Shown: in pieces, positions 4,217-34,910 of the stretch
How the letters are laid out: each line of letters starts with the position of its first letter
Numbering within the stretch: position 1 is the first letter of the stretch
DNA from: Streptomyces sp. NBC_00376
GTDB lineage: Bacteria; Actinomycetota; Actinomycetes; Streptomycetales; Streptomycetaceae
NCBI RefSeq assembly: GCF_036077095.1
Contig: NZ_CP107961.1
Location: forward strand, 558,001-622,000
Direction: 5' to 3'
Length of the DNA: 64,000 nt
Translations under genes and position numbers: made by a program
The notes under the pieces: generated by a model
Seen by the model: only the letters and a program-made list of their open reading frames with translations
The model's database searches: none
Told to the model about the DNA's origin: nothing

Positions 4217-5482
4217 GTGCTGAGTGGGGAGTTGGCTGCGGTCCGGTGTGATCTGGAGGACTTCGCGGCGGAGATGTTCGAGCCGTTCGCGCGAGCGGAT
4301 CAGCGTCGGTGGGGTGGGGTCTATCTGCGGGGCCTGCTGCTGGACGGCGGGCGCAAGTCGGTGGAACCGATGGCCGCCCGCCTGGGCGAAGACGGGAACC
4401 GGCAGGCGCTGGCCCACTTCATCACCTCCAGCCCGTGGGATGCGGCGCATGTGCGGGCCCGTCTGGCCTGGCGTATGCAGCCGGTCGTCAAGCCCACCGC
4501 GTCGATCATCGATGACACCGGGTTCCTCAAGGACGGGGATGCGTCGGCGTGTGTGACCCGGCAGTACACCGGCACTGCGGGCAAGGTCACCAACTGCCAG
4601 GCCGGGGTGTCGCTGCACCTGGCTTCCAACGGCGCCTCGGCGGCGGTGAACTGGCGTCTGTTCCTGCCCGGGAGCTGGGATCCCGCCTCGCCGAAGGCCG
4701 ATCAGGCCAAAGTGGCCCGCCGTGGCAAGTGCGCCATCCCTGCCCAGGTGGGCCATGTCGAGAAGTGGCAGCTGGCCCTCGACATGATCGACGAGACGCG
4801 GTCCTGGGGCATCGAGGTGCCCCAGGTCATCGCCGACGGCGGCTATGGTGACACCGCCGCCTTCCGGCTCGGCCTGGAAGAACGCGGTCTCGATTACGTG
4901 GTGGGCATCTCGACCCCGACCACCGCACAGCCCGAGGACGCACAGCCGTCTGCCCCGGCCTGCACAGGCCGGGGCAGACGGCCGGTTCCTGCCTACCCCG
5001 AGCCGGCCCGGAGGGTGAAGAGCCTGGTCATCGCGGCCGGAAAGTCTTCCGCGCGGCCGGTGCAGTGGAGGGAGGGATCACGGCCGGGCAGTGGCCGCAG
5101 CGGGCACAAACGCATGTACTCGCGCTTCGTGGCCCTGCGGATCCGGCCCGCCGGACGCGAGATCCGCAAGGCCACGGCCGCCACCGAGCTTCCGGTCCGC
5201 TGGTTGCTGGCCGAATGGCCCGCCGACCAGGACGAGCCCGTGCAGTTCTGGCTCTCCAACCTGCCCGCAACCACCCCGTTGCCCGTCCTCGTGCGCACCG
5301 CGAAGCTCCGCTGGCGCATCGAGAACGACTACCGCGAGATGAAACAGGCCCTGGGCCTGGCCCACTTCGAAGGCCGAACCTGGCCAGGCTGGCACCACCA
5401 CGTCACCCTCGTCTCGGTCGCCCACGCCTTCTGCACCCTGCAGCGACTGAGCCGATCCCCAAAAGAGACGGCGTCGGCCTGA
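4217..5482 (+). CDS. IS701-family transposase (copy 1)
   Basis: 421 residues, a DDE transposase: D in IIDDTGFLKDG (strand 1), D in VIADGGYGDTAAFR (strand 4), E in WRIENDYREMKQALGLAHFEGR (C-terminal helix). The N-terminal DFAAEMFEPFARADQR is family-typical. It differs from copy 2 by very few residues (S in KPTASIIDD against L). The GTG start is poorly supported by a ribosome site. Full length, so probably active. Confidence 0.9.
   Translation: MLSGELAAVRCDLEDFAAEMFEPFARADQRRWGGVYLRGLLLDGGRKSVEPMAARLGEDGNRQALAHFITSSPWDAAHVRARLAWRMQPVVKPTASIIDDTGFLKDGDASACVTRQYTGTAGKVTNCQAGVSLHLASNGASAAVNWRLFLPGSWDPASPKADQAKVARRGKCAIPAQVGHVEKWQLALDMIDETRSWGIEVPQVIADGGYGDTAAFRLGLEERGLDYVVGISTPTTAQPEDAQPSAPACTGRGRRPVPAYPEPARRVKSLVIAAGKSSARPVQWREGSRPGSGRSGHKRMYSRFVALRIRPAGREIRKATAATELPVRWLLAEWPADQDEPVQFWLSNLPATTPLPVLVRTAKLRWRIENDYREMKQALGLAHFEGRTWPGWHHHVTLVSVAHAFCTLQRLSRSPKETASA
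4945..4982. repeat. 38-nt near-perfect palindrome inside the IS701 transposase gene
   Basis: Two 18-base arms (GCCGTCTGCCCCGGCCTG and its inverse) around a CA centre, in frame within the transposase gene and encoding a Pro/Ala/Gly/Arg linker. The same palindrome is in copy 2 (28168-28205). It would form a very stable hairpin in mRNA or extruded DNA. Confidence 0.8.
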
Positions 5483-9274: not shown

Positions 9275-10279
9275 GTGGTGGAACAGCAGACATTGCCCAG
9301 GCCCTCCCGGCACGTGCCGGAGCACTCGTCCGCAGCGCGTCACCGGAAGCCGCGGGCTGCGAGGACCGGCGGGAGCATCAGCGGGCAGTGGAGACGGACA
9401 GCGGGAGTGCTGCTCGTGCTGTTCGCGCTCTCATGGCTGGCGGGAGTACTCCTTGCCGCGCATGGTCCGGCAAGTTCCTCGTCCCCGGCCGCCCGGTCGG
9501 CGGTCACTCTGGCGCCGCAAGGTCCGACCGTGCCCGAGCCTTCCCGCGTCGAGCCGACGCAGCCCGTGCCCGAGCCTTCCCAAGTCGAGCCGACGCGGCC
9601 CGCGCCGGAGCCTGCCCACGCTGAGCCGACGCGGCCCGCGCAGAAGCCTGCCCATCCTGCCGAAGCAGCCGCTTCCGGCACGGGAGCGGCGAAGCGCGTG
9701 GAGGCCGGGAAGGTCGTCCTGCGGCCCGGTGACACGCTCTACGCGCTGGCCGGCCGGCACGACACCACCGTCAAGGCCCTGCAGCGGCTCAATGCTCTGG
9801 GCACGTCGACACTGATCTACGCAGGAGACACCTTCCGTGTCCCCGCAGGAACGGGACCCGTGGGCGAGACGAGGAAGGACCGGCCGACGGATGGGGCGCC
9901 GTCGGCATCGGCGAAGTCTCCTGCACGGTCCGCTCCGCAGCGCGTTGTCGCCTTCGCCCAGGCGCAGTTGGGCAAGCCCTACATATGGGGTGGGACCGGC
10001 CCGCGCGGTTACGACTGCTCAGGTCTGGTGACGCGGGCATGGAAGGCGGCCGGAGTGAGCCTCCCGCGCACCACGTGGGGTCTGCTCCGGGCAGGCACGG
10101 CCACGACCCGCGCCCAGCTCGTCCCCGGCGACCTGGTGATCGCGAACAGCGGCGGGCACGTCCAGCTCTACATCGGGCACGGCAAGGTCATCCACGCCCC
10201 ACGCCCTGGCAGTACGGTCACCGTCGCCCCACTCGCCGCCGCATCCGATGTCGTCAGCTACCGCCACATCACACCGTGA
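9275..10279 (+). CDS. LysM and NlpC/P60 cell-wall hydrolase, membrane-anchored or exported
   Basis: 334 residues. Basic N terminus, one hydrophobic segment (residues 48-66, GVLLVLFALSWLAGVLLAA), a Pro/Glu-rich repeat region (PEPSxVEPTxP units), a LysM domain (VVLRPGDTLYALAGRHDTTVKALQRLN, binds glycan) and a C-terminal NlpC/P60 peptidase with catalytic Cys in YDCSGLVTRAWK and His in GGHVQLYIG, plus a third polar residue near HAPRP. Such enzymes cut D-Glu-meso-DAP-type bonds in peptidoglycan stems. AAGGAGG lies 2 bases before GTG 9275 and 5 before GTG 9278, so 9278 is equally possible. Stands alone; divergent from the secreted protein gene. Confidence 0.88.
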   Translation: MVEQQTLPRPSRHVPEHSSAARHRKPRAARTGGSISGQWRRTAGVLLVLFALSWLAGVLLAAHGPASSSSPAARSAVTLAPQGPTVPEPSRVEPTQPVPEPSQVEPTRPAPEPAHAEPTRPAQKPAHPAEAAASGTGAAKRVEAGKVVLRPGDTLYALAGRHDTTVKALQRLNALGTSTLIYAGDTFRVPAGTGPVGETRKDRPTDGAPSASAKSPARSAPQRVVAFAQAQLGKPYIWGGTGPRGYDCSGLVTRAWKAAGVSLPRTTWGLLRAGTATTRAQLVPGDLVIANSGGHVQLYIGHGKVIHAPRPGSTVTVAPLAAASDVVSYRHITP

Positions 10280-11769: not shown

Positions 11770-12371
11770 ACCGCTGCCAGTTCGTCGAGGATCACCAGCG
11801 CCGGTTCGGCGTCACGCGGTTGTGCTCGTTGCTGGGAATCGCCCGCTCGAGCTTCTACTACTGGCGCCGCACCGCGGCTGCACGGACGGCCCGGCAGGCC
11901 GCCGAGGCCGAACTCGCGGCCCGGATACGCAAGGTTCACCAGGACTCCGACGGCACCTACGGCGCCCCGAGGATCACCGCGGAGCCCCGCGAGGACGGCG
12001 GCCTGGTGGTCAATCACAAGCGGGTCGCGAGGATCATGCGGACCGTCGGCCTGGAAGGCGTCCGTCTGCGGCGCCGGCACCGCACCACCGTCGCGGACCC
12101 GGCCGCGGCGAAGGCGCCGGACCTGGTCGGACGCGACTTCACCGCGGCCGCGGTGAACGCGAAGTACGTCGGCGACATCACATACTTGCCGGTCAGCGGC
12201 GCGAAACCGCTCTATCTCGCGACCGTGATCGACCTGTGTTCACGCCGTCTGGCCGGGTGGGCGATCGCCGATCACATGCGCACCGAGCTCGTCATCGATG
12301 CCCTCCAGGCTGCCGAACGGACCCGCGGGAGCCTTGCCGGGGCGGTGATGCACACCGATCACGGCTCGCAA

Positions 12372-17707: not shown

Positions 17708-17880
17708 GCCCACGCTGGCTGGGCAAGGCAATGGGGTCACCGAGCTGCTTTGGCCCTGTTCTCGTATAGCTACGGCCAACGGACATGTAGCGCTGTGTGA
17801 CTGCTGTGGTCGTCGTTTCCCTTTGCCGGGCGTCTCGTTGAGCTGAACGAGTGATCTCGGGCGGGGCGGAGGAGTACGGG

Positions 17881-20800
17881 GTGCGGCAGGACTGGGAGCC
17901 GGAGGACCTGATCGAGGTCTGGACGCTGCTGGAAGACGACATGAAGCGGGTGCGGAACAAGTCGGGGGCGACTCGGCTCGGGTTCGCACTGTTGCTGAAG
18001 TTCTTCGAGGTGGAGGCCCGGTTCCCAGAGTCGGTCAAGGAGGTGCCTGCCGCCGCGGTGGAGTACGTGGCCCAGCAGGTCAAGGTGCCTGCGGAGGCAT
18101 GGGCGGACTACGACTGGCAGAGCAAGGCGATCCAGCGGCACCGGGGCGAGATCCGAGCGGTGTACGGGTTCCGGGCGAACACCGAGGAGGACCAGGACCG
18201 GCTGGCCGCGTGGCTGGCCACTGAGCTGTGCCCGGTGGAGCTGTCGCGGGACCGGCTCGCGGCTGCCGTCGTGGCCCGGTGCCGCAACGACCACATCGAG
18301 CCGCCGGCACCCGGGCAGGTGCGGCGGCTGGTCGGCAAGGCGGTCAAGGACTTCGAGAAGCGGTTCTGCCTCAGCACGCTGGACCGGCTCAACCACACGA
18401 CTCGATCGCGGCTGGAAGATCTGATCGCGGGCGACGACACCGAGCACGGCACGGACGGCGACAACGCCGTGGCCGGGGGCGGGCGATCGCACTTCACCGA
18501 GCTGAAGACGGACCCTGGCGCCCCGGGCCTGGAGAGCCTGCTTGCGGAGGTCAACAAGCTGGAGCGGGTGCGGCGGCTGGAGCTGCCCGCGGACCTGTTC
18601 GCGGACGTGTCGGAGAAGCTGGTGGACGCCTGGCGGGCCCGGGCATCGAAGGAGTACCCGGCAAACCTGGAGCGGATGAAACCGCCTCGGCGGCTGACCC
18701 TGCTGGCCACGCTGTGCCACGTCCGGCAGACGGAGATCACCGACTCGCTGGTGGACCTGTTCATCCAGCTCGTGCTGAAGATCAACACACGCGCGGAGCG
18801 GAAGGTCGAGAAGGAACTGGGGGCGGAGCTGAAGAAGGTCCGCGGCAAGGAGGCGATGCTGCTGCGGGGCGCGGAGGCGGCGCTGTCGGAGCCGTCCGGC
18901 ACGGTGCGGCGGGTGATCTTCCCGGTGGTCGGCGGGGAGAAGACACTCAAGGCGCTGGCGGCGGAGGCCGCGGCGAACGAGGCCCGCTACAAGGCCCAGG
19001 TCCGCACGGTGCTGCGGTCGTCGTACTCGGCGCACTGGCGGCGGATGCTGTCGCCGCTGCTGCGGGCGCTAGAGCTGAAGTGCAACAACACCGCCTACCG
19101 ACCGGTGATGGACGCGATCGACCTGCTGGTGCGGTACCTGGAGCAGCCGCTGAAGGAGGGCGCCTTCTTCGACCCGGCCGAGGCGGTTCCGCTGGACGGG
19201 GTGGTTCCCGAGCAGTGGCGGGCGGCGGTCGTCGACGATAAGGGCCGCGTCGAGCGCATTCCGTACGAGCTGTGCGTGCTCGTCAGCTTGCGGGACGCGA
19301 TGCGGCGGCGGGAGATCTGGGTCGTGGGCGCCAACCGGTGGCGCAATCCGGAGGACGATCTGCCCGCCGACTTCGAGAACAACCGGGACGTCCACTACGC
19401 CGCTCTGGGCCAGCCGCAGGACGCCGGCGAGTTCATCACCGCCCTCCAGAGCAAGCTGCGGGCGTCGCTGGACTGCTTCGAGCAGGCTCTGGCCGAGGGC
19501 GCAACGGGCGGGGTCGCGGTCGTCAAGAAGCACGGCGAGCCGTGGATCAGGGTCTCCCCGCGCGGCAAGCAGGGCGAGCCTGAGTCGCTGGTGGCAATCA
19601 AGGCGGAGATCGAACGGCGCTGGGGCACCATTGACCTGCTGGACATCCTGAAGTACGCCGAGTTCGACACGGACTTCATCGCCGAGTTCACCTCGGTCGC
19701 CACCCGCGAGAACCTGTCCAAGGACGTGTTGCGGCGCCGGCTGCTGCTGGTGCTGTTCGGGCTCGGCACGAACATGGGGATCAAGCGGGTCGCGGTGACC
19801 GGCAAGCACGGCGAGTCGGAGGCGACGCTGCGCCGGGTGCGGCACCTGTTCGTCAACCGCGCCAACATGCGCGCGGCTTTGCGGAAGCTGGTCAACGCCA
19901 CCTTCGCCGCCCGCGACGAGATGTGGTGGGGCACAGGCACCGCGTGCGCCTCCGACAGCCGCAAGTTCGGCGCCTGGTCCTCGAACCTGATGACCGAGTG
20001 GCACCAACGCTACCGGGGCCCTGGCGTGATGATCTACTGGCACGTCGAGCGGAAGTCGGTGTGCATCTACTCCCAGCTCAAGTCCTGCTCGGCCTCCGAG
20101 GTCGCCTCGATGATCGAGGGCGTGCTGCGGCACTGCACCGACATGGAAGTGGACCGGCAGTACACCGACACCCACGGTGCGTCCATCGTCGGCTTCGCCT
20201 TCGCGCACATGCTCGACTTCAAGCTGATGCCGCGACTGAAGAACATCGGCTCCGCCAGGCTGTACCGGCCGGCCGCCGGGGAGGACGACAACTGGCCGAA
20301 CCTCGCCCCGGTGCTCTCCACCAAGACGATCAACTGGGACCTGATCCGCCAGCAGTACGACCAGATCGTGAAGTACACCACCGCTCTGCGGCTGGGCACC
20401 GCCGAGGCCGAGCAAGTCCTGCGCCGCTTCACCCGCGGCGGCCCCAAGCACCCCACCTACCAGGCGATCGAGGAACTCGGGCGGGCGGTACGTACGGCGT
20501 TCGTGTGCGACTACCTCGCCGACGTCGAGCTGCGGCAGGAGATCCACGAGGGCTTGCAGGTCGTGGAGAACTGGAACAGCGCGAACAAGGACCTCTTCTA
20601 CGGCAAGGACGGCGACCTGGCAGGTGCGGACAAGGAGTCCCAGGAGGTGTCCATGCTCGCCCTTCACCTGCTCCAGTCCGCTCTCGTGCACGTCAACACG
20701 CTGCTGATGCAGCAGGTCCTTGCCGACCCGAAGTGGGCCGACATGCTCACCGACGCCGACCGGCGGGCCCTGTCCCCGCTGTTCTGGACGCACGTGAACC

Positions 20801-20919
20801 CCTACGGCAGGTTCGAGCTGGACATGAACAGCCGCCTGGAGCTGGACCTGGCCACCACGGCCAAGGCGGTTCCCGGCCCGCGCCGCCCCGAGAGTGAGAG
20901 CGCGACGGCCCCCGCGTGA
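17881..20919 (+). CDS. tnpA: Tn3-family transposase TnpA
   Basis: 1012 residues. The start [20 protein letters not shown] with [17 protein letters not shown] is the conserved Tn3 N terminus; GTG 17881 is chosen because CGGAGGAG lies 7 bases upstream (the open frame begins at 17851). The catalytic part has [19 protein letters not shown] (first Asp), the KNIGSARLY region and [27 protein letters not shown], followed by [16 protein letters not shown]. Full length for the family, so likely active. It catalyses replicative transposition to a cointegrate, which the recombinase would then resolve. Confidence 0.94.
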
Positions 20920-21031
20920 GCGGGCCGGGCTGGTGTGCCGCTCCAGGAAGCGGACGGACGAGTGCCGGGACCGCGCGAGCAGTGAAGTGCGCGAATTAGG
21001 GGCGTGGGATCTTGGGGCATAGGTTGACGCC

Positions 21032-22714
21032 ATGGTGGAGGGGGCGAACTCCGCGGCGCAGACCATGCCGCAGGAGCAGCAGACAAGGGGGCGGCATGCC
21101 GCCCGGCGGAAGAAGGACAAGGGCGGGCTGGCTCGTTCGTCGTTGTTGATGGCTGTTGGCACGGTGGTGTCGCGGGCGACGGGGCTGATCCGTCAGGTGC
21201 TGCAGGCCGCGGCTCTGGGAACGGGCCTGCTGGCCAGTACGTACAACACGGCGAACACCGTGCCGACGAGCCTGTACACGCTGCTGATCGGCGGCGCGCT
21301 CAATGCCGTGCTGGTACCGCAGCTGGTGCGGGCCCGGACCACGGACCCCGACGGCGGGCGGGCCTACGAGCAGCGGCTGGTCACGCTCGTGGTGTGCGTG
21401 TTGGGCGTAGGGACGGCGCTGGCGGTATGGGCAGCGCCGCAGATCGTGAGCCTGTACATGCGGGACACCCCGGACAGTCACGAGGCGTTCGAGCTGACGG
21501 TGACGTTCGCGCGGTTCCTACTGCCGCAGATCTTCTTCTATGGCCTGTTCAGCATCTACGGGCAGGTGCTGAACGCGCGTGAGAAGTTCGGCGCGATGAT
21601 GTGGACCCCGGTGCTGAACAACGTCGTACTGGTCGGCATGTTCGCCGCCTATCTGGGGCTGATGACGGTGCCCGACCGGGTGGAGGACATCACCGCCGCC
21701 CAGGTGCAGTTGCTGGGGATCGGGACGACGGCAGGAATCGCTCTGCAGGCCGTGGCCCTGATTCCGTTCGCGCGGGCAGCCGGCTTCCGGTTCCGGCCGC
21801 GGTTCGACTGGCGGGGCACCGGTCTGGGCAAGAGCGTGCACGCAGCGAAGTGGACGCTGCTGTTCGTCCTGGCCAACCAGGTCTCCCTGACGGTGGTCAC
21901 GAACTACGCCAACGCCGCCGACCAAGAGCTGCCGCAGGCCGGCGCAGGCTACTCCGCCTACACCTACGCACAGACCATCTGGATGCTGCCGCAATCGATC
22001 GTGACCGTGTCCCTGGTGACGGCGCTACTGCCGCGCATGAGCCGGGCCGTCGCCGAGGGGCGCATTCCGGACCTGCGCGCGGACCTGTCCCGGGCGCTGC
22101 GGATCAGCGGCGTGGTCATTGTGCCCGCCGCCTTCCTCTTCCTCGCCCTGGGGCCCCAGATCTCTTCGCTGCTGTTCGCCCACGGAGCAGCCGACGCTGC
22201 TTCAGCCCGGCCACTGGGCCACATGCTGCAGGCGTTCGGGCTTGGGCTCATCCCGTTCTCCGCTCAGTACCTGCTGCTGCGAGGCTTCTACGCCTTCGAG
22301 GACACCCGCACCCCGTTCTTCATGGCGTCCTGGATCGCAGGCGTGAACATCGCCCTGGCCACGGCCTGCCATCTGCTGCTGCCCGCCCGCTGGTCGGTGG
22401 TCGGCATGGCCGGGGCCTACACCCTCTCCTACGTGGCCGGTCTCGCACTCACCGCCTACCTGCTGCGCAAGAAGATGGGGAGCCGGATCGACGACGGAGG
22501 TCTGCGCCGCACCTACGTGAAGCTGCTGTGCGCCGCGTGCCCGGCTGCTGGGCTGGGCTGGGCAGCAGCGCGTGCGTGTGCTGGCCTGGGAGACGGAACG
22601 TGGCCCACTGCTGCCGCATTGGGTGCCGGGGCGCTCGCGACAGCCCTGGCCTACCTCCTTCTTGCCCGGTTGCTGAAAGTCAACGAGCTCCGTCGCCTGC
22701 CCGGGATGCGTTGA
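21032..22714 (+). CDS. murJ: MurJ/MviN-type lipid II flippase as transposon cargo
   Basis: 560 residues, about 14 membrane segments. Characteristic MurJ motifs: LLMAVGTVVSRATGLIRQVLQAAALG, TYNTANTVPTSLYTLLIGGALNAVLVPQL, FARFLLPQIFFYGLFSIYGQVLNAREKFGAMMWTP (shown here in parts), LLRGFYAFEDTRTPF. MurJ flips the peptidoglycan precursor lipid II across the cytoplasmic membrane. The length suits a flippase without the extra kinase-like domain of some actinobacterial MviN. It lies inside the Tn3 repeats, 112 bases after tnpA, same strand. Unusual cargo; could be a moron protecting the host against lipid II-targeting agents, which is inference only. Confidence 0.9.
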   Translation: MVEGANSAAQTMPQEQQTRGRHAARRKKDKGGLARSSLLMAVGTVVSRATGLIRQVLQAAALGTGLLASTYNTANTVPTSLYTLLIGGALNAVLVPQLVRARTTDPDGGRAYEQRLVTLVVCVLGVGTALAVWAAPQIVSLYMRDTPDSHEAFELTVTFARFLLPQIFFYGLFSIYGQVLNAREKFGAMMWTPVLNNVVLVGMFAAYLGLMTVPDRVEDITAAQVQLLGIGTTAGIALQAVALIPFARAAGFRFRPRFDWRGTGLGKSVHAAKWTLLFVLANQVSLTVVTNYANAADQELPQAGAGYSAYTYAQTIWMLPQSIVTVSLVTALLPRMSRAVAEGRIPDLRADLSRALRISGVVIVPAAFLFLALGPQISSLLFAHGAADAASARPLGHMLQAFGLGLIPFSAQYLLLRGFYAFEDTRTPFFMASWIAGVNIALATACHLLLPARWSVVGMAGAYTLSYVAGLALTAYLLRKKMGSRIDDGGLRRTYVKLLCAACPAAGLGWAAARACAGLGDGTWPTAAALGAGALATALAYLLLARLLKVNELRRLPGMR

Positions 22715-22774
22715 GTCCAGGCGAACGATGGAAGGGGCGGGTAAGAACGCCGCCACCGGCCGCCAACATGGGTG

Positions 22775-23842
22775 TCACATCCGGCGACGTGCGGCGGGGT
22801 CGCGCTCGGCGACGTGTCGGGCGACCGCGTCGACGCCGGGGCGGGCGTATCGCTCCAGGGAGCGTACGGAGGCGTGGCGGGAGCGGGCCAGCAACATCGG
22901 GGTGGACGTACCGTCCTCGGCGTCGTGTGTGAGGGCACTGTGGCGGAGCCGGTGGAGCGGCCAGCCGTCCAGGTCCTCGATGTCGTCGGGTGAGGCCAGC
23001 GGATTGGCCAGCAGCCGGGTGTTCTCCTCGAAGATCTCCTCGGCCCGGCGGTAGGAGAGCCGAGCCCGGCCGGTCTCCGGGCACACGTCGAGCGTCGGTG
23101 TCCCGGCCGGGGCCTTGCGGTCGGTGAGGAACAGCGGGCCGCGGGTGCGGCGGGCGATGAGGCGAGGCAGAAGCTGTGCGGTGCCGGACTGCCAGTGGAT
23201 CCACTCGGTTGCCCCGCCCTTGGCGGTGATCTTCCCGCGTTTGTCCTGCGGGTAGAGGTTTTCCACGTTCAGGCACAGCACCTCGTCGGCCCGGGCTGCC
23301 GATTCGTAGAGCATCTTCCAGAACGTCTTCTCCCGCAGGGCGACGTCCAGGCGCCGCAGGGCGGTGATCTGGTTCTTAGCCAGTGCCTTGGTGCGGTCCG
23401 GCGGGGCCGGCCGCCGCTCGATCCCGATCGTCGGGTCACTGATGATCCAGCCCTGGCGCTGCCACCAGCCGATCGCCTTGCGCACGATGGACAGTTCCCG
23501 GTTCACGGTGTCGGCGTCCATCTCGTCCGCCCGAGCCGCCGCCAGCTCGGCCAGCACCTCGGGCAGTGCGCAATCGTCGATCGCGGTAACGGGGAAGGTT
23601 GGCGGCTTCGCGCCTCGGCGGGCGGGTCCGGTCGGCGCGGGTTCGCCGGCGAGCATCCACCCCCACGTCGTCAGTGAGATCCGGTAGATCCGCGCGGAAG
23701 ACTTCGCGATGCCCACGCCGGTGAGGTAGCGCTCGACCGCCGCGGTGTACGACGCGGGCGGGGCGGACAGCGGCACGACCCGGGCGCGCGGCAACCGAAC
23801 CGCGCTCCCGCTCCCGAGTTCGGTCACCGGTTCGATCGCCAC
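22775..23842 (-). CDS. Tyrosine recombinase, probable TnpI-type resolvase of the Tn3 element
   Basis: 355 residues. Core-binding domain (YTAAVERYLTGVGIAKSSARIYR), then catalytic domain with Arg in ESAARADEVLCL, Lys in TAKGGATEW, HRLRHSALTH and SRHASVRSLERY (His, Tyr). Known: some Tn3 elements (Tn4430, Tn5401) use a tyrosine recombinase TnpI in place of a serine resolvase. Its position inside the repeats, convergent with murJ and reading away from a repeat-rich site at 23864-23973, supports the same role here. Confidence 0.85.
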   Translation of the reverse strand: MAIEPVTELGSGSAVRLPRARVVPLSAPPASYTAAVERYLTGVGIAKSSARIYRISLTTWGWMLAGEPAPTGPARRGAKPPTFPVTAIDDCALPEVLAELAAARADEMDADTVNRELSIVRKAIGWWQRQGWIISDPTIGIERRPAPPDRTKALAKNQITALRRLDVALREKTFWKMLYESAARADEVLCLNVENLYPQDKRGKITAKGGATEWIHWQSGTAQLLPRLIARRTRGPLFLTDRKAPAGTPTLDVCPETGRARLSYRRAEEIFEENTRLLANPLASPDDIEDLDGWPLHRLRHSALTHDAEDGTSTPMLLARSRHASVRSLERYARPGVDAVARHVAERDPAARRRM

Positions 23843-23863
23843 GCCCGCCCTACCCTTCCGGCA

Positions 23864-23973
23864 CTGCCGCAGTAAATGCGTACACCTCGCCTGTGGCAGC
23901 CGGAGAGCCCGTCGCAGGTCACGATGATCACGGTAGAGGGCCTGCCGCAGTAAATCCGGTATTTACTGCGGCA
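23864..23973. repeat. Probable internal resolution site of the Tn3 element
   Basis: A 13-bp inverted repeat (TGCCGCAGTAAAT, 23943-23955, and its inverse at 23961-23973) around a 5-base spacer CCGGT forms a typical tyrosine-recombinase core. A direct copy, CTGCCGCAGTAAAT, lies at 23864-23877, 78 bases away and 22 bases beyond the recombinase start. A core plus accessory direct repeat next to the gene is the layout of Tn4430-type IRS sites. It may also control the recombinase promoter. Confidence 0.75.
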
Positions 23974-24442
23974 CCGCCCTGACGCACCACCAGGCGCCGA
24001 AAGTCCGATAAGTGGACCTCGAAACAAAACTGCCGCTACCGCCAATCGCTGCACCGCCGGCCCGCGCGCCCTGTCTGGCCCCGAGCATTACTCAGCGCTA
24101 CATGTCCGCTCGCCGTAGCTATACGAGAACAGGGCCGCTTTCGCTACACACCGTCAGCATCGTCCTGGCTGCACCCAAGAACTGGCGACAGTTGAATACG
24201 CGAGCCCACCAGTACCGAGGCCGAGATAGCCGGACACCCGAGCCAGCGCAGGGCGGGATGTCCCTGAGCGGCCCTGTGCGGCTCTCGGGGCATGATCGGC
24301 ACTCCCCGACACCGACGCGGAGATCGGCGCTCCTGACCCCCTTCACGCCCCGCCTCGGGCCCGTTCCGCATGATCACCCGGCCCGGGGGGTGCGGGTATC
24401 CGTCCAGGTCAGGGCACTCTTTTACCTAGATACATATGTGTT

Positions 24443-24562: not shown

Positions 24563-25468
24563 TCAGGCCATCCGCAACTGGTCGCGGAGCGTCCGGGCGA
24601 CCTGTGCCATCAGTGCTTCCGTCTCGGGCTGCAGCACGGCCGGTACGCGGGATTCGGTGAGGGCGGCGACGGCGAACGTCTGCCCGTCGGCGTGCTCGAC
24701 GACCCCGGCCTCGTGTCGGAGGTTGAGCAACGTACCGGTCTTCGACGACCACCGGGACGCGTCGGAGCTGAAGTCGGGAGCCAGTCGCTGCCGGATCACG
24801 TTGTTCGTCATCAGCTCGCGGACCCGCACCGCGGTGGCGGGCTGGATCGTCGTCGGCCGCCACAATCCCTCCAGCAGGTCGACGAAGGTCCGGGCCGACC
24901 CGACGTTCGCGCGACTGATGTCGAGCTGGGCCACGGGATGCCCCTGTCCCGCTGTCGCCGCGCCGATGGCGAGGGCGTGGGCAAGGTGCACCTCGGTCGG
25001 CGCGAACCGTTCGGCCGGCGTCTGGGTGAGGTCCCCCATGAGGTGGCGTACCACGATGCCGTCGTAGCCGAGCCGCCGCAGCTCCGCGGTGACCGCGGCG
25101 GGCGGGGTGAGGGCGAACAGCGCGTCGGCCGCGGTGCCGTCGCTGATCGCCGTGCTGAGATACAGCAGGTCCTCGAGCGCGACCGTGGCCGGGTGCCGGA
25201 ACTTGGTCAGGCCGGTCGGTCCCGGCACGGTGACGCGGCCGGGCTGCACCACGATCGTTGCGGCCAGGTCGAGTTCGCCGCGTCCGACACGTTCCAGTGT
25301 GGCGATCGCGAGCGGCACCTTGACCAGGGAAGCGATCGGATACTCCACCTCGGCGTCGATCGCGAGTTCATCGCCGGTGTCCAGGTCACGCACCAGGAAC
25401 GAGCCGCGCAGGCCGCCGTCGTGCAGGGCCTCCCGCGCATCGCGCAGGACCTTGGTCGTCCCCACCAC
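24563..25468 (-). CDS. blaB: BlaB-like penicillin-recognising protein (class A fold)
   Basis: 301 residues with serine beta-lactamase motifs: S47-L-V-K50 (SxxK), S109-D-G, K243-T-G. There is no signal peptide, so it should stay in the cytoplasm. Known: in Streptomyces cacaoi, blaB encodes such a protein, lacks useful beta-lactamase activity and is needed with the LysR protein BlaA for induction of blaL. Its GTG start shares one base with the stop of the LysR gene (TAGTG), so the two are translationally coupled. Gene order and strand match the S. cacaoi locus. Confidence 0.82.
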   Translation of the reverse strand: MVGTTKVLRDAREALHDGGLRGSFLVRDLDTGDELAIDAEVEYPIASLVKVPLAIATLERVGRGELDLAATIVVQPGRVTVPGPTGLTKFRHPATVALEDLLYLSTAISDGTAADALFALTPPAAVTAELRRLGYDGIVVRHLMGDLTQTPAERFAPTEVHLAHALAIGAATAGQGHPVAQLDISRANVGSARTFVDLLEGLWRPTTIQPATAVRVRELMTNNVIRQRLAPDFSSDASRWSSKTGTLLNLRHEAGVVEHADGQTFAVAALTESRVPAVLQPETEALMAQVARTLRDQLRMA

Positions 25469-26385
25469 TACGCCTCACCGTCGCCCGGCACGTCGCCGCT
25501 CCGGCTACCGTGGTCCGACATGCCGAGGCAGCGCCCGATCGTGGCGAGCGGGAGGGTCCGGATCCGCTGGGCGTCCTCGCGCAGTCCGGCCTCGACGTCG
25601 TAACCCCGTACCAGCTCCAACTCGCCGATCGGCCGCCAGTACAGCCCCAGTTCGTCGGCCTGGACGGCGGAGCAGAGCAACAGGTCGGCCGAGCCGAGCA
25701 CCTCGGCCGCGGCGTCGACGAGTGAGGCCGAGACCACGACCTGGGCGGGTTGGAGGCCGACCCCGTCCCGTAAGCGGATCACCCGGTCGCGTACGTGAGG
25801 CACGTCGTCCTCCGGCTGGATCCAGACGCGTCGTCGGCGTGCGTTACGTCCGGCCCGGCCCGCGCGCAGGTTTTCCACGTATATCGTCTGCCCCGCCGGC
25901 TCGGCGCTGCCGGCCAGCCCCAACGGTATCCGCCATGGCGCTCCGTCCGCGGGTACGGACACGATCGCCGCCCGGACCTCCAACGTCCGGGCGAGCGCCG
26001 CGCGTTCACCCGGCCCGGCTGTGTGCAGCGCGAGATTCAGGTCGTGCCGACGCGCCTCGGCAACGAGCCCGGCGAGCCGGCGTGGGGCGGAGACCGCCGG
26101 TATGGCCAGCCGGAACCGGCGTCGCTTGGCACACTCGGCGTCGTGCTCCATCGCCTCGACGAGTTCGACCAGCCGCCGGGCCGAGGACAGCATGTCCCGG
26201 CCGAACAGGGTCAGAGTGACGTTTCGTGACGACCGGTCGAACAACTTGGCGCCGAAGTGCTCCTCCAGGGCGGCGATCCGCCGGCTGACGACCGACTGCG
26301 GCATGCCTGCCGCAGCGGCACCGACGGTGAAGCTGCCATGCCCACTCACCGCCACGAACGCCTCGCAGGCCCTGACCATGTCCAC
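25468..26385 (-). CDS. blaA: LysR-family regulator, BlaA-like
   Basis: 305 residues. N-terminal LysR HTH (FVAVSGHGSFTVGAAAAGMPQSVVSRRIAALEEHFGAKLF, in parts), then a periplasmic-binding-fold effector domain with the segment FRLAIPAVSAPRRLAGLV. Divergent from the beta-lactamase gene with a 240-base shared promoter region, and coupled to the blaB-like gene: the classic beta-lactamase activator arrangement. GTG 26385 or ATG 26379 may be the start. Confidence 0.85.
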   Translation of the reverse strand: MDMVRACEAFVAVSGHGSFTVGAAAAGMPQSVVSRRIAALEEHFGAKLFDRSSRNVTLTLFGRDMLSSARRLVELVEAMEHDAECAKRRRFRLAIPAVSAPRRLAGLVAEARRHDLNLALHTAGPGERAALARTLEVRAAIVSVPADGAPWRIPLGLAGSAEPAGQTIYVENLRAGRAGRNARRRRVWIQPEDDVPHVRDRVIRLRDGVGLQPAQVVVSASLVDAAAEVLGSADLLLCSAVQADELGLYWRPIGELELVRGYDVEAGLREDAQRIRTLPLATIGRCLGMSDHGSRSGDVPGDGEA

Positions 26386-26429
26386 GGCCGGAGCTTATAG
26401 CTATGCCGGATCAGCATGGGTCTGCGCAT

Positions 26430-26446
26430 TTCTGTCTTGGACAGAA
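26430..26446. promoter_or_regulatory. Candidate BlaA operator
   Basis: Perfect inverted repeat TTCTGTC-TTG-GACAGAA between the divergent LysR and beta-lactamase genes, containing a T-N11-A element of LysR type. It is 45 bases from the LysR start and 180 bases from the beta-lactamase start. Confidence 0.55.
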
Positions 26447-26624
26447 TGTACTGCCGAATGCCAGATTGCCTTCTGCCCGACCTGGGTCATCTCTCGAAGT
26501 AGATACCGGTTTGTCGGTAATGAGCTTCCGGAGGGGAAATGTTGCCCGGCGGACACCCCATCTGCGGCAAGCGAACTCGAGCCCGCTTGCCGTAGTCGTA
26601 ACTCGCCCCGGTGAAGGGAAGACC

Positions 26625-27554
26625 ATGACGTCACAACAACCGGCCATCACGCGCCGCGCGCTTCTAGGGGTGGCGGCACTCCTGCCGTTGGCCGGATGCG
26701 CGGAGGGCAAGAGGACAGCGACGCGACCGTCAGCGGGCGAGCCCTCATCCCCCTCCGCCACGGCGAGCGCTCGCCACAGTCAACTGGCCGCATTGGAAAG
26801 GAAGTTCGAAGCACGCTTAGGGGTGTACGCCCTCGCCACCGGCACCGGGGCCACCATCACCCACCGGGCGGACGAACGGTTCGCGTTCTGCTCGACGTTC
26901 AAGGGGCTGGCGGCAGCGGCGGTCCTGCACCGCAATCCGCTGTCGCACCTGGATACGGTCATCAGGTACACCGAAGGCGACCTGATGAAGAGCTCGGCCA
27001 TCACCAGACGGCATGTGGCCACCGGAATGACGATCCGACAACTGTGTGATGCCGCGGTCCGCTACAGCGACGGAACGGCCGGCAATCTCCTGCTCCGCGA
27101 TCTCGGCGGGCCGGCCCGGTTCACGGCGTACGTGCGCAGCCTCGGCGACACGGTCACCAGGATGGACCGGATCGAGCCGACGATCGCGCAAGCCACCCCG
27201 GGAGACCCCCGCGACACCACCTCGCCCCGGGCGTTCGGTACCAACTACCGGAAGATCCTGCTGGGGGACGCCCTGCCGACGGACAAGCGCACCTTCCTCC
27301 GCCACCTGCTGGAACGCAACGCCACCGCTGCCGGCGCGCAACGTATCCGGGCCGGCATACCGCGGGGATGGAACGTGGCGGACAAGACCGGGACCGGTGA
27401 CTACGGCACCCTCAACGACATAGCTGTGGTGTGGCCCCCGAATGCCGCGCCACTCGTCATCGCGATCATGTCCAGCAAGGCCACCAAGGACGCCGAGTAC
27501 GATCAGGCCCTCCTCGCCGAGGCCGCCGCGTACGTGGTGGCCACTCTCACCTAG
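26625..27554 (+). CDS. blaL: Class A beta-lactamase, lipoprotein/Tat-type signal
   Basis: 309 residues. Signal: MTSQQPAITRRALLGVAALLPLAGC, with twin arginines and a lipobox ending at Cys, so probably an exported lipoprotein. Catalytic motifs are complete: S90-T-F-K93, S148-D-G (SDN position), E184 in RIEPTIAQ (omega loop), K254-T-G. It hydrolyses beta-lactams outside the membrane. ATG 26625 follows GAAGGGA. Expression is expected to depend on the divergent LysR/BlaB pair. Its TAG stop (27552-27554) lies inside the CTAG target of IS701 copy 2, which therefore begins at the next base. Confidence 0.93.
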   Translation: MTSQQPAITRRALLGVAALLPLAGCAEGKRTATRPSAGEPSSPSATASARHSQLAALERKFEARLGVYALATGTGATITHRADERFAFCSTFKGLAAAAVLHRNPLSHLDTVIRYTEGDLMKSSAITRRHVATGMTIRQLCDAAVRYSDGTAGNLLLRDLGGPARFTAYVRSLGDTVTRMDRIEPTIAQATPGDPRDTTSPRAFGTNYRKILLGDALPTDKRTFLRHLLERNATAAGAQRIRAGIPRGWNVADKTGTGDYGTLNDIAVVWPPNAAPLVIAIMSSKATKDAEYDQALLAEAAAYVVATLT

Positions 27555-31825: not shown

Positions 31826-32971
31826 TCAGTGTCCGCAGCCGGACATGGGGGTGTCGAGGTATTTCCAGGTCTGGGGTCCGACCTGGCCGTCGGGTTTGAG
31901 GCCGCTGCAGCGCTGGACGGCACGTACGGCGACGTCGGTACTTTCTCCGAACTTGCCGTCGACGGTGAGCGTGTAGTCGTAGTTGGAGTTCAGCAGGCAC
32001 TGGATCTGCTTCACCTTCGAGCCGACCATGCCCTTGGCCATGACCTGCTTGCGGTCCCAGTTGTAGCGGCAGCTGGCGCGGCCAGCGGCGCCGGGCGAGG
32101 CGGCCGTACTGGGCGAGGCAGGAGCAGAGGGTGAGGAAGAGGTCTCGCCCTTGGCTGAACTGCTGGGGCGCGACGTCTTCGTATTCGTGTCCTCCTCGCC
32201 CGTGGAGTCCTGGTCCTTGTCCTTCTTCTCGCCGTCCGTCGGAGTCTTGGTCGGTGCGGTGCTGCTCTTCGGGGGCACGGGGGTTTCGTCGACCACTGGT
32301 TGGTCGTCTCCGGGGCGGTTGTCGCCGCCGGTCTCGGGCTGGGAGACGGCGGAGTCCTTCGTCTCGTGGACCGAGTACCAGCGTCCGACCAGCAGCAGCG
32401 CGACGAGGGCAGCGGCGATCAGCGCGAGGATTTTGATCCGGCCCCGGGGAGCAGCGGCCGGCCTTGCCGGTTCGGCCGGGCCGGGCATGGACGGTGCGGG
32501 AGCCGGGCTGGCCGCTGCGGGTTTCGGAGCTGCGGTGCCAGGAACGGTGTCCGGGACTGTAGGCGACACGGGGTCCGCGGCTGCCGGCGGTACGGGGGCC
32601 GGGGCCGTCGGCGGTACGGGGTCCGGTACGCCTGGTGCGGGGGCTGCCGGTGCGGGAACGGGCGCTGTTCCGGGCGGTGCTTCTTCCTGGGCGTCTTGGG
32701 CGCGGCGGGCTTGGTCGGCGGTGTCCCAGAGGTCGAGGAGGGTGTTCTTGTCGAGGCCGCGGCGGGTGCAGAGGCGTTCGACGGCTGCTCGGGGTGGGAA
32801 TGCGGTGCCTTTGAGGACGCGGTTCCAGGAGGAGCGGGAGTAGCCGGTGTCGTGGGTGAAGGCGTCCAGGGAGAGGTTCTTGGATGCCTTGACCTGCCGT
32901 AGTGCCTGGAGCAGTGCGGTGACTTGTGGCAGTGGCTGTGCGGGTGGGTTGTCGCCTTGGTTGGGCTGCAC
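31826..32971 (-). CDS. HTH - transmembrane - peptidoglycan-binding ectodomain protein
   Basis: 381 residues. N-terminal HTH (LLQALRQVKASKNLSLDAFTHDTGYSRSSWNRVLKG), a long Pro/Ala linker, one membrane span (KILALIAAALVALLLVG), a charged outer linker, and a PG_binding_1 domain at the C terminus (VGSKVKQIQCLLNSNYDYTLTVDGKFG...GLKPDGQVGPQTWKYL) with flanking cysteines. GTG start with GGGGGAG 5 bases upstream. Divergent from the muramidase gene (223-base shared promoter), which itself has two PG_binding_1 domains. Inferred: senses peptidoglycan and controls the muramidase. Confidence 0.85.
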   Translation of the reverse strand: MQPNQGDNPPAQPLPQVTALLQALRQVKASKNLSLDAFTHDTGYSRSSWNRVLKGTAFPPRAAVERLCTRRGLDKNTLLDLWDTADQARRAQDAQEEAPPGTAPVPAPAAPAPGVPDPVPPTAPAPVPPAAADPVSPTVPDTVPGTAAPKPAAASPAPAPSMPGPAEPARPAAAPRGRIKILALIAAALVALLLVGRWYSVHETKDSAVSQPETGGDNRPGDDQPVVDETPVPPKSSTAPTKTPTDGEKKDKDQDSTGEEDTNTKTSRPSSSAKGETSSSPSAPASPSTAASPGAAGRASCRYNWDRKQVMAKGMVGSKVKQIQCLLNSNYDYTLTVDGKFGESTDVAVRAVQRCSGLKPDGQVGPQTWKYLDTPMSGCGH

Positions 32972-33194
32972 AGATCTCCCCCTGGTTCCGATGTGATCGT
33001 CGTGTTCCAGAGCCGTTTCTTTTCGCAGGTCAGGGGCCTTGTGGAACGGCCGGGACGGCGCGGTACGGCTGGAATGGCGATCAGGCTACCGGTGGGACGG
33101 CGGTACCCCGAATCTTCATCTCGTCGACGCCGCAAAGGCGCGGCGCAAACTGCCTGCCGGGTGTGTGTCGGTGGGTCTGACGAGGGGTGAAGTC

Positions 33195-34910
33195 GTGCGG
33201 ATCATCAGCAAGAAGACGGGTCTTCAGGCGGGTGCCATGGTGGCGGTCGCGGCCGCTGGATTTGGCCTGATCAGCTTCTCCGGGAACGAGGAGGCGCAGG
33301 CGAACAGCCCGGCCGCGTACAGCGTGAAGGGCTTCGACACCAGCCACCACAACGCCCACCCGATCCAGTGGTCGGCGTCCGTGAGCGCGGGGTACTCGTT
33401 CGTGTTCCAGAAGGCGACGCAGGGCACCGGTTACCGCGACCCGCAGTTCGCCGGTGACTTCGCGGGGGCGTCGCGGGCCGGGCTGATGGTCGCGCCCTAC
33501 CACTTCTACGACTCCGGTTCCGGCGCCGCCCAGGCCGACCACTTCGTCCGTACGGCCAGGGCCGCCGGCTACGACGGCAAGCGTGCCGGGCAGCTGCCGC
33601 CGGTGGTCGACCTGGAGAAGATCCGCGGCCGGTGCCCGGCCGGGGTGAACAACACCCAGGTCGCCGCGTTCCTCTCCAAGGCGCGTCAGGCGTTCGGGGT
33701 GAACCCCATCGTCTACACCTCGAAGGACTTCGCCGACACCTGCCTGCGCGGCAACACCGGCGCCCTGGCCAACAGCCCGCTGTGGCAGCCCCGCTACGAG
33801 AGCGGAACGCGTGAGCCCGCCCCGGTCGGCGGCAGGTACTGGTCGATCTGGCAGTACACCGAGAACGGGACGGTACCCGGCCTGCGGGGCAGGGCCGACG
33901 TCAACGTCTACAAGGGCACGCTGACCCAGCTCCGCGCCCTCGCCCCCCTCGCCCCCGGCCAGACCCCCACGAGCCCCGGCACGGGTACGCCGACGCCTTC
34001 CACGGGCAACGGCACCGGCACCGGAGCCGGTACGGGGGCTGGTGGTGGTGCGTCTGCTCCGGCCGCGGCCGTGTGGCCGCTGCTGAAGAACGGGGCGCGG
34101 GGCGTGAACGTCACCACCGCCCAGCACCTGCTCGCCGCGGCCGGCCAGTCCGTCACCGCCGACGGGATCTACGGCCCGAACACCCAGAACGCCGCCGCCG
34201 CGTTCCAGCGCGCCCACGGCCTGACCGCCGACGGCATCATCGGCCCGAACACCTGGAACAAGCTCGTCCGCACCGTTGGCCAGGGCGCGAACGGAGCCGC
34301 GGTGAAGGCCGCCCAGGCGCAGCTCGCCGGGTACGGCAACCGCATCGCGGTCGACGGTGCGTTCGGCCCGGCGACCCGGAACGCGGCCATGGCGTTCCAG
34401 CGGTCCCACGGCCTGACCGCCGACGGCGTCATCGGTCCGAAGACGTGGAACAAGCTGATCAACGGCGCGAAGTCCGCCCCGACCACGCCCGCACCGACCA
34501 CGCCCGCACCCTCGAACGGCAGGCTGACCCAGCGCCAGGCGCTCACGCAGCTCGCCGCGGCCGGGATCAAGGCACCGGTCGGCCGGACCTCCCTCGCAGG
34601 TGTCCGTGCCCGGACCATCCAGGGTGTCATCGCGCTGAAGAAGGCCAGCGGCTGCACCATCACCATCACCGGTGGCACCGAGTCCGGCCACAGCGCCGGC
34701 CCCCGCTCCCACGCCAACGGTTACAAGCTCGACCTGCGCACCCGCGACGAGGGCCGCTGCGTGACCAACTGGATCAAGACCACCCAGCGCAAGGCCTCTC
34801 CCCGGGGCACCGACGCCCGCTGGCACGGCACCCTGAACGGCATCTCCGCCGAGTACGTCTACGAAATCCCCCGCAGCGGCGGCGTCCACTGGGACATCAC
34901 CTTCATCTGA
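33195..34910 (+). CDS. Secreted GH25 muramidase with two PG-binding domains and M15 peptidase domain
   Basis: 571 residues. Signal peptide (MRIISKKTGLQAGAMVAVAAAGFGL...AQA). GH25 domain with GFDTSHHN and the DxE motif in VVDLEK; a Gly/Thr/Pro linker; two PG_binding_1 repeats (each with TADGIxGPNTWN/TADGVIGPKTWN-type ends); and a C-terminal M15-like domain with SHANGYKLDLR and GGVHWD zinc-site motifs. It should cut both the glycan and the stem peptide or crosslink of peptidoglycan. GTG 33195 has GAGGGG 7 bases upstream; the longer frame lacks a ribosome site. Confidence 0.9.
   Translation: MRIISKKTGLQAGAMVAVAAAGFGLISFSGNEEAQANSPAAYSVKGFDTSHHNAHPIQWSASVSAGYSFVFQKATQGTGYRDPQFAGDFAGASRAGLMVAPYHFYDSGSGAAQADHFVRTARAAGYDGKRAGQLPPVVDLEKIRGRCPAGVNNTQVAAFLSKARQAFGVNPIVYTSKDFADTCLRGNTGALANSPLWQPRYESGTREPAPVGGRYWSIWQYTENGTVPGLRGRADVNVYKGTLTQLRALAPLAPGQTPTSPGTGTPTPSTGNGTGTGAGTGAGGGASAPAAAVWPLLKNGARGVNVTTAQHLLAAAGQSVTADGIYGPNTQNAAAAFQRAHGLTADGIIGPNTWNKLVRTVGQGANGAAVKAAQAQLAGYGNRIAVDGAFGPATRNAAMAFQRSHGLTADGVIGPKTWNKLINGAKSAPTTPAPTTPAPSNGRLTQRQALTQLAAAGIKAPVGRTSLAGVRARTIQGVIALKKASGCTITITGGTESGHSAGPRSHANGYKLDLRTRDEGRCVTNWIKTTQRKASPRGTDARWHGTLNGISAEYVYEIPRSGGVHWDITFI

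Follow-up and report, generated by a model that had tools for sequence, protein, structure and literature searches.

Transposons of the Tn3 family that carry a TnpI-type tyrosine recombinase are few: the relevant passages of PMC7157771 count only three such members among 190 transposons, and describe Tn4430 and Tn5401 as having a tyrosine resolvase, an inverted-repeat core site and an accessory site beside the resolvase gene. For Tn4556, the passages of PMC6403206 on its structure give the order tnpA, a methyltransferase gene, a gene of the undecaprenyl diphosphate synthase family (PF01255), a convergent gene for a 324-aa tyrosine resolvase, a palindrome and the right end. Here we analyse a stretch of 64,000 nucleotides from Streptomyces sp. 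NBC_00376 (the window), in which positions 17752-24136 form a 6385-bp Tn3-family transposon with tnpA, an intact gene of the lipid II flippase family (murJ) and a convergent TnpI-type recombinase gene with a palindromic core site. We propose, at about an even chance, that a transposon with the Tn4556 gene order acquired a self-promoted accessory murJ, which may act as an extra, divergent lipid II flippase protecting the lipid II cycle.

The transposon is a new combination of known architecture. It shares with Tn4556, as far as described, the succession of tnpA, cargo, convergent tyrosine recombinase, palindromic candidate res site and right end, as well as a target duplication, and the Tn4556 cargo likewise includes a lipid-carrier gene (putative undecaprenyl diphosphate synthase). 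The two differ in their ends (38 bp in Tn4556, 47 bp in the window) and in that the cargo here is murJ (PMC6403206). Moreover, TnpA and TnpI are only 22% and 35% identical to those of a Tn4556-type transposon (L009, below); the TnpA is thus not of the Tn4556 branch, and descent is not claimed. The tyrosine resolvase, inverted-repeat core site and accessory site beside the gene recall Tn4430 and Tn5401, and the window TnpA has the solved Tn4430 transposase as a homologue (E 4.4e-65). However, tnpI and tnpA of Tn4430 are colinear and Tn4430 has no known passenger (PMC7157771), while in the window the pair is convergent around a cargo slot. Also, a single accessory half-site was found in the window at up to 2 mismatches, where the DR1/DR2 of a Tn4430-type site would make two.

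The transposon and its insertion

A scan of the region for inverted pairs gave terminal repeats of 47 nt each (17752-17798 and 24090-24136) with 94% complementarity, the remaining 15 pairs of at least 20 nt being only 20-32 nt long, at 71-78%. GCTTT stands on both sides of the transposon (17747-17751 and 24137-24141). The two flanks were joined into an 800-bp query with one GCTTT and the junction at 400. Plasmid NZ_CP109328.1 of NBC_01591 aligned with positions 1-473 of this query, across the junction, at 88.4% over 474 columns and with one GCTTT. Since a natural empty site with a single GCTTT thus exists in another Streptomyces plasmid, the element is a real insertion at the window site. A Streptomyces microflavus plasmid (NZ_CP054927.1) aligned with positions 1-482, at 89.7% over 486 columns, and had GCTAC at the junction. 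The traits of the Tn3 family are present: a DDE_Tnp_Tn3 transposase of about 1000 aa, inverted ends of at least about 38 bp and a 5-bp target duplication. The first-pass annotation, made from the letters alone, had described a complete Tn3 element with inverted repeats, a GCTTT duplication, tnpA, a full-length MurJ-type gene and a tyrosine recombinase; the repeat scan, profile scores and empty site bear this description out, and only the repeat length, given as 45 bp, is amended to 47 bp by computation. The genome has 10.04 Mb in three contigs, C1 being 8.94 Mb; contig C2 (674,441 bp) contains the window. The closest matches are Streptomyces sequences, and the size and plasmid matches of C2 indicate that it is probably a large plasmid. 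The features of the transposon are:

17747-17751, no strand: target-site duplication GCTTT, left copy (one copy in the NBC_01591 plasmid empty site)
17752-17798, plus strand: left terminal inverted repeat, 47 nt, 94% complementary to the right end
17851-20919, plus strand: tnpA, Tn3-family DDE transposase, 1022 aa (Pfam DDE_Tnp_Tn3, NCBIfam transpos_Tn3)
20927-20981, minus strand: remnant, 3′ tail of another tnpI-like gene between tnpA and murJ, 78% to 22839-22893; one frame reads LLARSRHSSVRFLERH
20982-22739, plus strand: captured murJ unit, the stretch common to relatives elsewhere (right edge 22714 to 22767 depending on the relative)
20996-21025, plus strand: promoter-like TTAGGG-N18-TAGGTT, leaderless-type, the -10-like hexamer 6 nt before the murJ ATG
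21032-22714, plus strand: murJ, lipid II flippase family, 560 aa (TIGR01695)
22775-23842, minus strand: tnpI-type tyrosine recombinase, 355 aa, convergent with tnpA and murJ (Phage_integrase)
23865-23877, plus strand: accessory TnpI-type half-site TGCCGCAGTAAAT (half-site search)
23943-23973, plus strand: candidate TnpI core recombination site, 13-bp inverted half-sites with a 5-bp spacer (half-site search)
24090-24136, minus strand: right terminal inverted repeat (inverted-pair scan)
24137-24141, no strand: target-site duplication GCTTT, right copy (sequence)

TnpA scored 423.5 bits with Pfam DDE_Tnp_Tn3 and 822 bits with NCBIfam transpos_Tn3 (cut-off 500), D702, D773 and E906 being candidates for its catalytic triad. 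It would copy the element into new DNA, giving the 5-bp duplication. The recombinase scored 35.6 bits with Phage_integrase (cut-off 27.1). On the far side of its gene lies the palindrome TGCCGCAGTAAAT-CCGGT-ATTTACTGCGGCA (23943-23973), a putative resolution site at which TnpI would resolve the cointegrate. Among 20 fetched tnpI loci, 16 had both core and accessory site, two the core pair alone (L160, L169), one a single core half with the accessory site (L161) and one none of these (L164). When loci are compared, the similarity of their tnpI-module DNA often reaches no further than the outer palindrome edge, which would be expected if different transposons have exchanged flanks by recombination there.

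The 55-bp tnpI-tail remnant (20927-20981) adjoins the left joint of the murJ unit. Solo tnpI 3′ tails, this one before murJ, one at C1:8836916-8837065 and weaker ones at C1:8429712 and C3:164304, had prompted the idea of a cassette for which the tail served as attachment site. The idea was dropped because, among the matches listed from a search of 392 genomes of the genus, pieces from the 5′ region and from the middle of the gene were common as well. The tail upstream of murJ stays an unexplained joint. The one at C1:8836916-8837065 (L107) is 94% identical over residues 305-354 and fused to unrelated sequence.

Origin and boundaries of the murJ unit

The MurJ of the window, a protein of the MOP superfamily, covers profile positions 2-503 of the 506 of TIGR01695 with 372 bits (cut-off 235.55), that is, as a full-length equivalog, and matches solved MurJ structures (E 9.3e-25). 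MurJ proteins have 14 transmembrane helices; in the window protein a crude hydropathy scan gave 14 peaks, two of them overlapping and none before residue 77. The charged cavity residues R18, R24, D39, R52 and R270 are important in E. coli MurJ. Both R18 and R24 have kept counterparts in the window protein (R48, R54), and the positions of D39, R52 and R270 hold S69, Y82 and T315. It thus differs from the known MurJ in the D39 position, and also in being mobile, in its leaderless-type promoter motif and in belonging to a separate Streptomyces clade. Serine in place of D39 could mean altered inhibitor binding, altered coupling or a different substrate.

The host chromosome encodes a main MurJ of 719 aa (48% identity to the window protein) and a second MurJ of 572 aa (52%). 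A quick tree of 107 rows (four of odd length, L058, L059, L206 and L207, were dropped, and the stops in L052 and L203 read through) placed the window protein in a clade of 14 rows (clade A, SH-aLRT 100) with accessory MurJs, apart from both host proteins. On this phylogenetic evidence the gene is foreign and not a captured host copy. The first-pass annotation had named murJ-free sister elements together with an exact match to the host chromosomal murJ as signs of accidental capture: such sister elements do occur (below), but the gene is not that of the host, and the phylogeny speaks against capture of a host copy. Matches to the window MurJ at E<=1e-170 were present in 60 of the 392 genomes, its own included (as in the genome counts below), the best other copy being 96% identical, and clade A murJ genes were found on plasmids and chromosomes alike. 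Against 11 clade A relatives, dN/dS of the window gene was 0.07-0.14, which indicates purifying selection on clade A murJ. Separately, Streptomyces sp. NBC_00637 has MurJ3-type genes on two plasmids (L006, L007), 91% and 83% identical to the window MurJ.

Comparison of the window with 15 clade A loci gave approximate capture boundaries: the common DNA begins at 20982-20999 for 13 loci, at 21014 and 21018 for the other two, and ends at 22714-22767. Several clade A relatives share among themselves about 180-250 bp upstream and at least 220 bp downstream of murJ, and similarity between L200 and L201 runs to about 1.1 kb past the gene. Because several relatives share longer flanks than the window does, the window murJ is a trimmed single-gene unit. 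The KN37 copy (L004) and others have almost nothing downstream of murJ in common with any relative. A search for a conserved partner gene beside clade A murJ gave no neighbour family in three or more of the 15 loci, and families in only two (one for L005 and L014, one for L201 and L202, both from G149). Terminal repeats of a free murJ unit, looked for in L200-L202, were limited to short weak local matches. The gene downstream of murJ in L200 and L201 had been taken for an integrase tail by look only; Pfam gave nothing, and it was set aside.

The motif TAGRTT stands 6 nt ahead of the ATG in 13 of 14 clade A rows and in 48 of 73 MurJ3-type starts. It was absent from the starts of main MurJ (0/27) and second MurJ genes (0/5), a weak control, as these starts were picked by alignment to a short protein. 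The motif suggests that murJ may be transcribed leaderless from a promoter travelling with the gene.

murJ and other cargo in related transposons

The 24-base end motif of the transposon occurs at up to 2 mismatches in 69 of the 392 genomes, and TnpA relatives at E<=1e-250 in 34. The first-pass annotation had asked whether murJ is always inside such elements. It is not: no MurJ match was found in any of 15 other copies with paired ends, neither in the 12 from genomes (L221-L231, L163) nor in the three plasmid copies (L114, L119, L120), among which L227-L229 were without a whole tnpA and the last 1 kb of L231 lay outside the fetched stretch. The slot between tnpA and the recombinase gene varies in content between sister elements: a sulfate permease with a MerR regulator (L226), a Vgb-family streptogramin B lyase (L222), TerC (L225), an annotated aldo/keto reductase, one unnamed protein (L163) and, in a right half with the 3′ end of tnpA (L157), thymidylate synthase with a shortened dihydrofolate reductase (DHFR). 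In place of TnpI, some sister elements have an annotated ‘recombinase family protein’, by its look probably a serine recombinase.

Short or partial copies were also observed. The host genome has a solo transposon end (C1:8108234-8108276) and two tnpA remnants (C1:8599106-8599828 and C3:38280-39024). End pairs without tnpA enclose 911 bp around one gene for a GNAT acetyltransferase-like protein in L228 (G046:C5, positions 517-1427) and 232 bp at G068:C1:5507062-5507293; both are possibly non-autonomous derivatives.

murJ recurs in other Tn3-family transposons. In a plasmid of S. canus NBC_01002 (L009), ends of 53 nt with 87% complementarity (4666-4718 and 12165-12217) enclose tnpA, murJ, two hypothetical genes and a convergent recombinase, the MurJ being 72% identical to that of the window. 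No target duplication was matched between the flanks of L009 (GATGC versus TATAT); it may therefore have been rearranged. Plasmid MurJs of NBC_01483 and NBC_01450 (95-96% to that of L009, 99% to each other) sit behind decayed remnants of an L009-type tnpA, in one case also with part of the L009-type recombinase. A 49-residue piece of TnpA is present in ISL-10 (L016), which seems to be the strain also represented by G030 (L208); it stops 36 bp ahead of a MurJ that is 83% identical to that of the window.

We scanned 129 murJ rows (2.35 Mb in all, counting duplicates and other MurJ types) with profile hidden Markov models (HMM) for TnpA. Pieces at E<0.01 were found in 8 of the 129 rows, a few weaker matches (E 0.02-0.7) being left out of the counts. 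In six rows such a piece ended 36-180 bp ahead of MurJ in the same orientation, and five of seven distinct loci, the window included, had it just upstream. L209 and L243, with TnpA pieces 3.5 and 7.3 kb from murJ, were not counted as linked. The position of MurJ directly behind the end of a Tn3 tnpA thus arose independently at least twice and probably three times. Among the open PMC papers listed in literature searches none described murJ as transposon cargo, and to that extent such cargo seems new in print.

Three further plasmid murJ genes are recorded here. One in Micromonosporaceae is followed by a convergent TnpI-like tail (L241, 12008-12271). Two more distant ones lie near a FemA/FemB glycyltransferase and a VanW protein (pFRL4, L011) and near a two-component system and a penicillin-binding protein (pPaSha1, L242).

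The L009 type was itself examined for cargo. In one locus (L251), an L009-type tnpA (84%) and recombinase (89%) flank genes for a UppS-family protein of 258 aa and a methyltransferase of 345 aa. These sizes and families are those published for Tn4556, and the L009 type is therefore Tn4556-like, a link that rests on L251 and the published Tn4556 description, not on Tn4556 sequence. Fifteen L009-type genome loci were fetched, 12 of them (L245-L247, L249-L252, L255-L259) with both tnpA and recombinase. Four of the 12 held copies of drug-target functions: UppS (L251), threonyl-tRNA synthetase (ThrRS; L255), an EF-Tu-like GTPase with no domain 2 match (L259) and a trans-2-enoyl reductase (L250), which we take to be of the type known as FabV. 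FabV can replace FabI as an insensitive enzyme. Three of the cargo copies were compared with the host's best other copy and are far from it (ThrRS 42%, EF-Tu-like 47%, UppS 51%). The other cargo consisted of dehydrogenases, an MFS protein, a sulfate permease, a ricin-lectin-domain protein, regulators, or nothing clear. Seven further plasmid examples (L260-L266) had no drug-target copies by annotation, hypothetical proteins there not being scanned. These target-copy counts were made after the cargo was seen and are not a test.

Possible role of a mobile flippase gene

We favour, as said, an extra protective flippase. A Tn4556-order transposon would have taken up a single-gene murJ of the accessory Streptomyces clade; MurJ, made from its own leaderless-type promoter, would work as a second lipid II flippase and, being divergent, keep lipid II export running when an inhibitor acts on the resident flippase or on the lipid II cycle. 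Humimycin is an agent directed at MurJ. In E. coli, cells with extra or foreign flippase are protected from MurJ-directed lysis proteins (PMC10229422), a precedent for such protection. The benefit in the transposon may concern agents of these kinds, other lipid II-cycle drugs or something else. The occurrence of MurJ in a second Tn3 lineage and of other target paralogs in related transposons makes a protective role more credible than a single case would. The first-pass annotation had inferred that an extra, mobile flippase could give tolerance to agents that hit lipid II traffic or to toxins directed at MurJ; this hypothesis of a selected mobile flippase is partly supported and gains from the recurrence.

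Several observations weigh against this proposal. The position of E. coli D39 is serine in the clade A rows aligned there, whereas the host main MurJ keeps aspartate; the equivalents of R52 and R270 are absent from the window MurJ, and also from the host main MurJ. The dN/dS values mostly reflect the time before capture. Some clade A relatives are broken (one in-frame stop each in G229 and G341) or shortened (G009), and murJ is therefore dispensable in those strains. The window was chosen for its transposon, and excluding it leaves four of six TnpA-bearing loci with the piece just upstream of MurJ. Finally, most cargo of the same slot is not a drug target.

A rival reading is that any gene nearby can enter the slot between tnpA and tnpI, and that murJ came there by chance, with no selected role. 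It fits the very mixed sister slots (sulfate permease, TerC, streptogramin lyase, thymidylate synthase, hypothetical proteins), the decay of the MurJ-linked tnpA in NBC_01483 and NBC_01450 and the broken murJ genes just cited. We regard it as unlikely, since MurJ is found behind tnpA in at least two TnpA lineages, probably three, the window gene is intact in a constrained clade, and the core promoter motif was captured along with it. The altered D39 position, seen in the rows shown of the wider clade, bears on another reading, in which the MurJ3-type protein flips a different lipid-linked substrate or serves development, for example sporulation, and is mobile for that reason and not for protection. 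Five of the 20 loci fetched (L210, L213-L216) have a syntenic chromosomal set, which suggests an established cellular role, and the protein is about half identical to main MurJ. Yet the window protein still scores as a MurJ equivalog, and no operon points to another pathway, neighbour families being shared by two clade A loci at most; this reading is, in our judgement, quite improbable.

To our knowledge no MurJ-binding phage lysis protein is known for Streptomyces, so that a decoy function in phage defence, with the extra MurJ titrating or escaping such proteins, is very improbable here. What speaks for it comes from E. coli (PMC10229422): the lysis proteins of phages M and PP7 are suppressed when murJ is expressed, and against the PP7 protein foreign flippases rescue the cells.

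Extended to the slot as a whole, the protective proposal becomes more tentative. Tn4556-order Streptomyces transposons might be vehicles for divergent copies of essential antibiotic targets (MurJ, UppS, ThrRS, EF-Tu-like, ThyA/DHFR, FabV-type), usually one gene per slot, each inhibitor-insensitive or raising target dosage; the mobile murJ would then confer resistance to a natural lipid II-flippase inhibitor yet to be found. We hold this as a possibility, short of an even chance. That transposons repeatedly carry a core cell-wall gene suggests that spare-target resistance may be mobile in antibiotic producers, and similar murJ copies in unrelated transposons hint that spare antibiotic targets circulate. 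The window murJ is a concrete gene with which to ask whether soil holds natural MurJ inhibitors, and the rule of reading the slot behind tnpA could lead to other mobile target copies and to the compounds they answer.

As for neighbouring genes, about 430 bp past the right end of the transposon lies a beta-lactamase-fold gene (24563-25468, minus strand; Pfam Beta-lactamase2, below the NCBIfam cut-off), followed by a LysR regulator gene (25468-26385, minus strand) and a class A beta-lactamase gene (26403-27554, plus strand; NF033103, 310.6 bits against a cut-off of 200). Cell-wall resistance genes thus adjoin the murJ transposon. The same replicon also carries, within the window, genes for an NlpC/P60 protein with LysM (9275-10279), a peptidoglycan-binding-domain protein (31826-32971) and a GH25 lysozyme-like protein (33165-34910).

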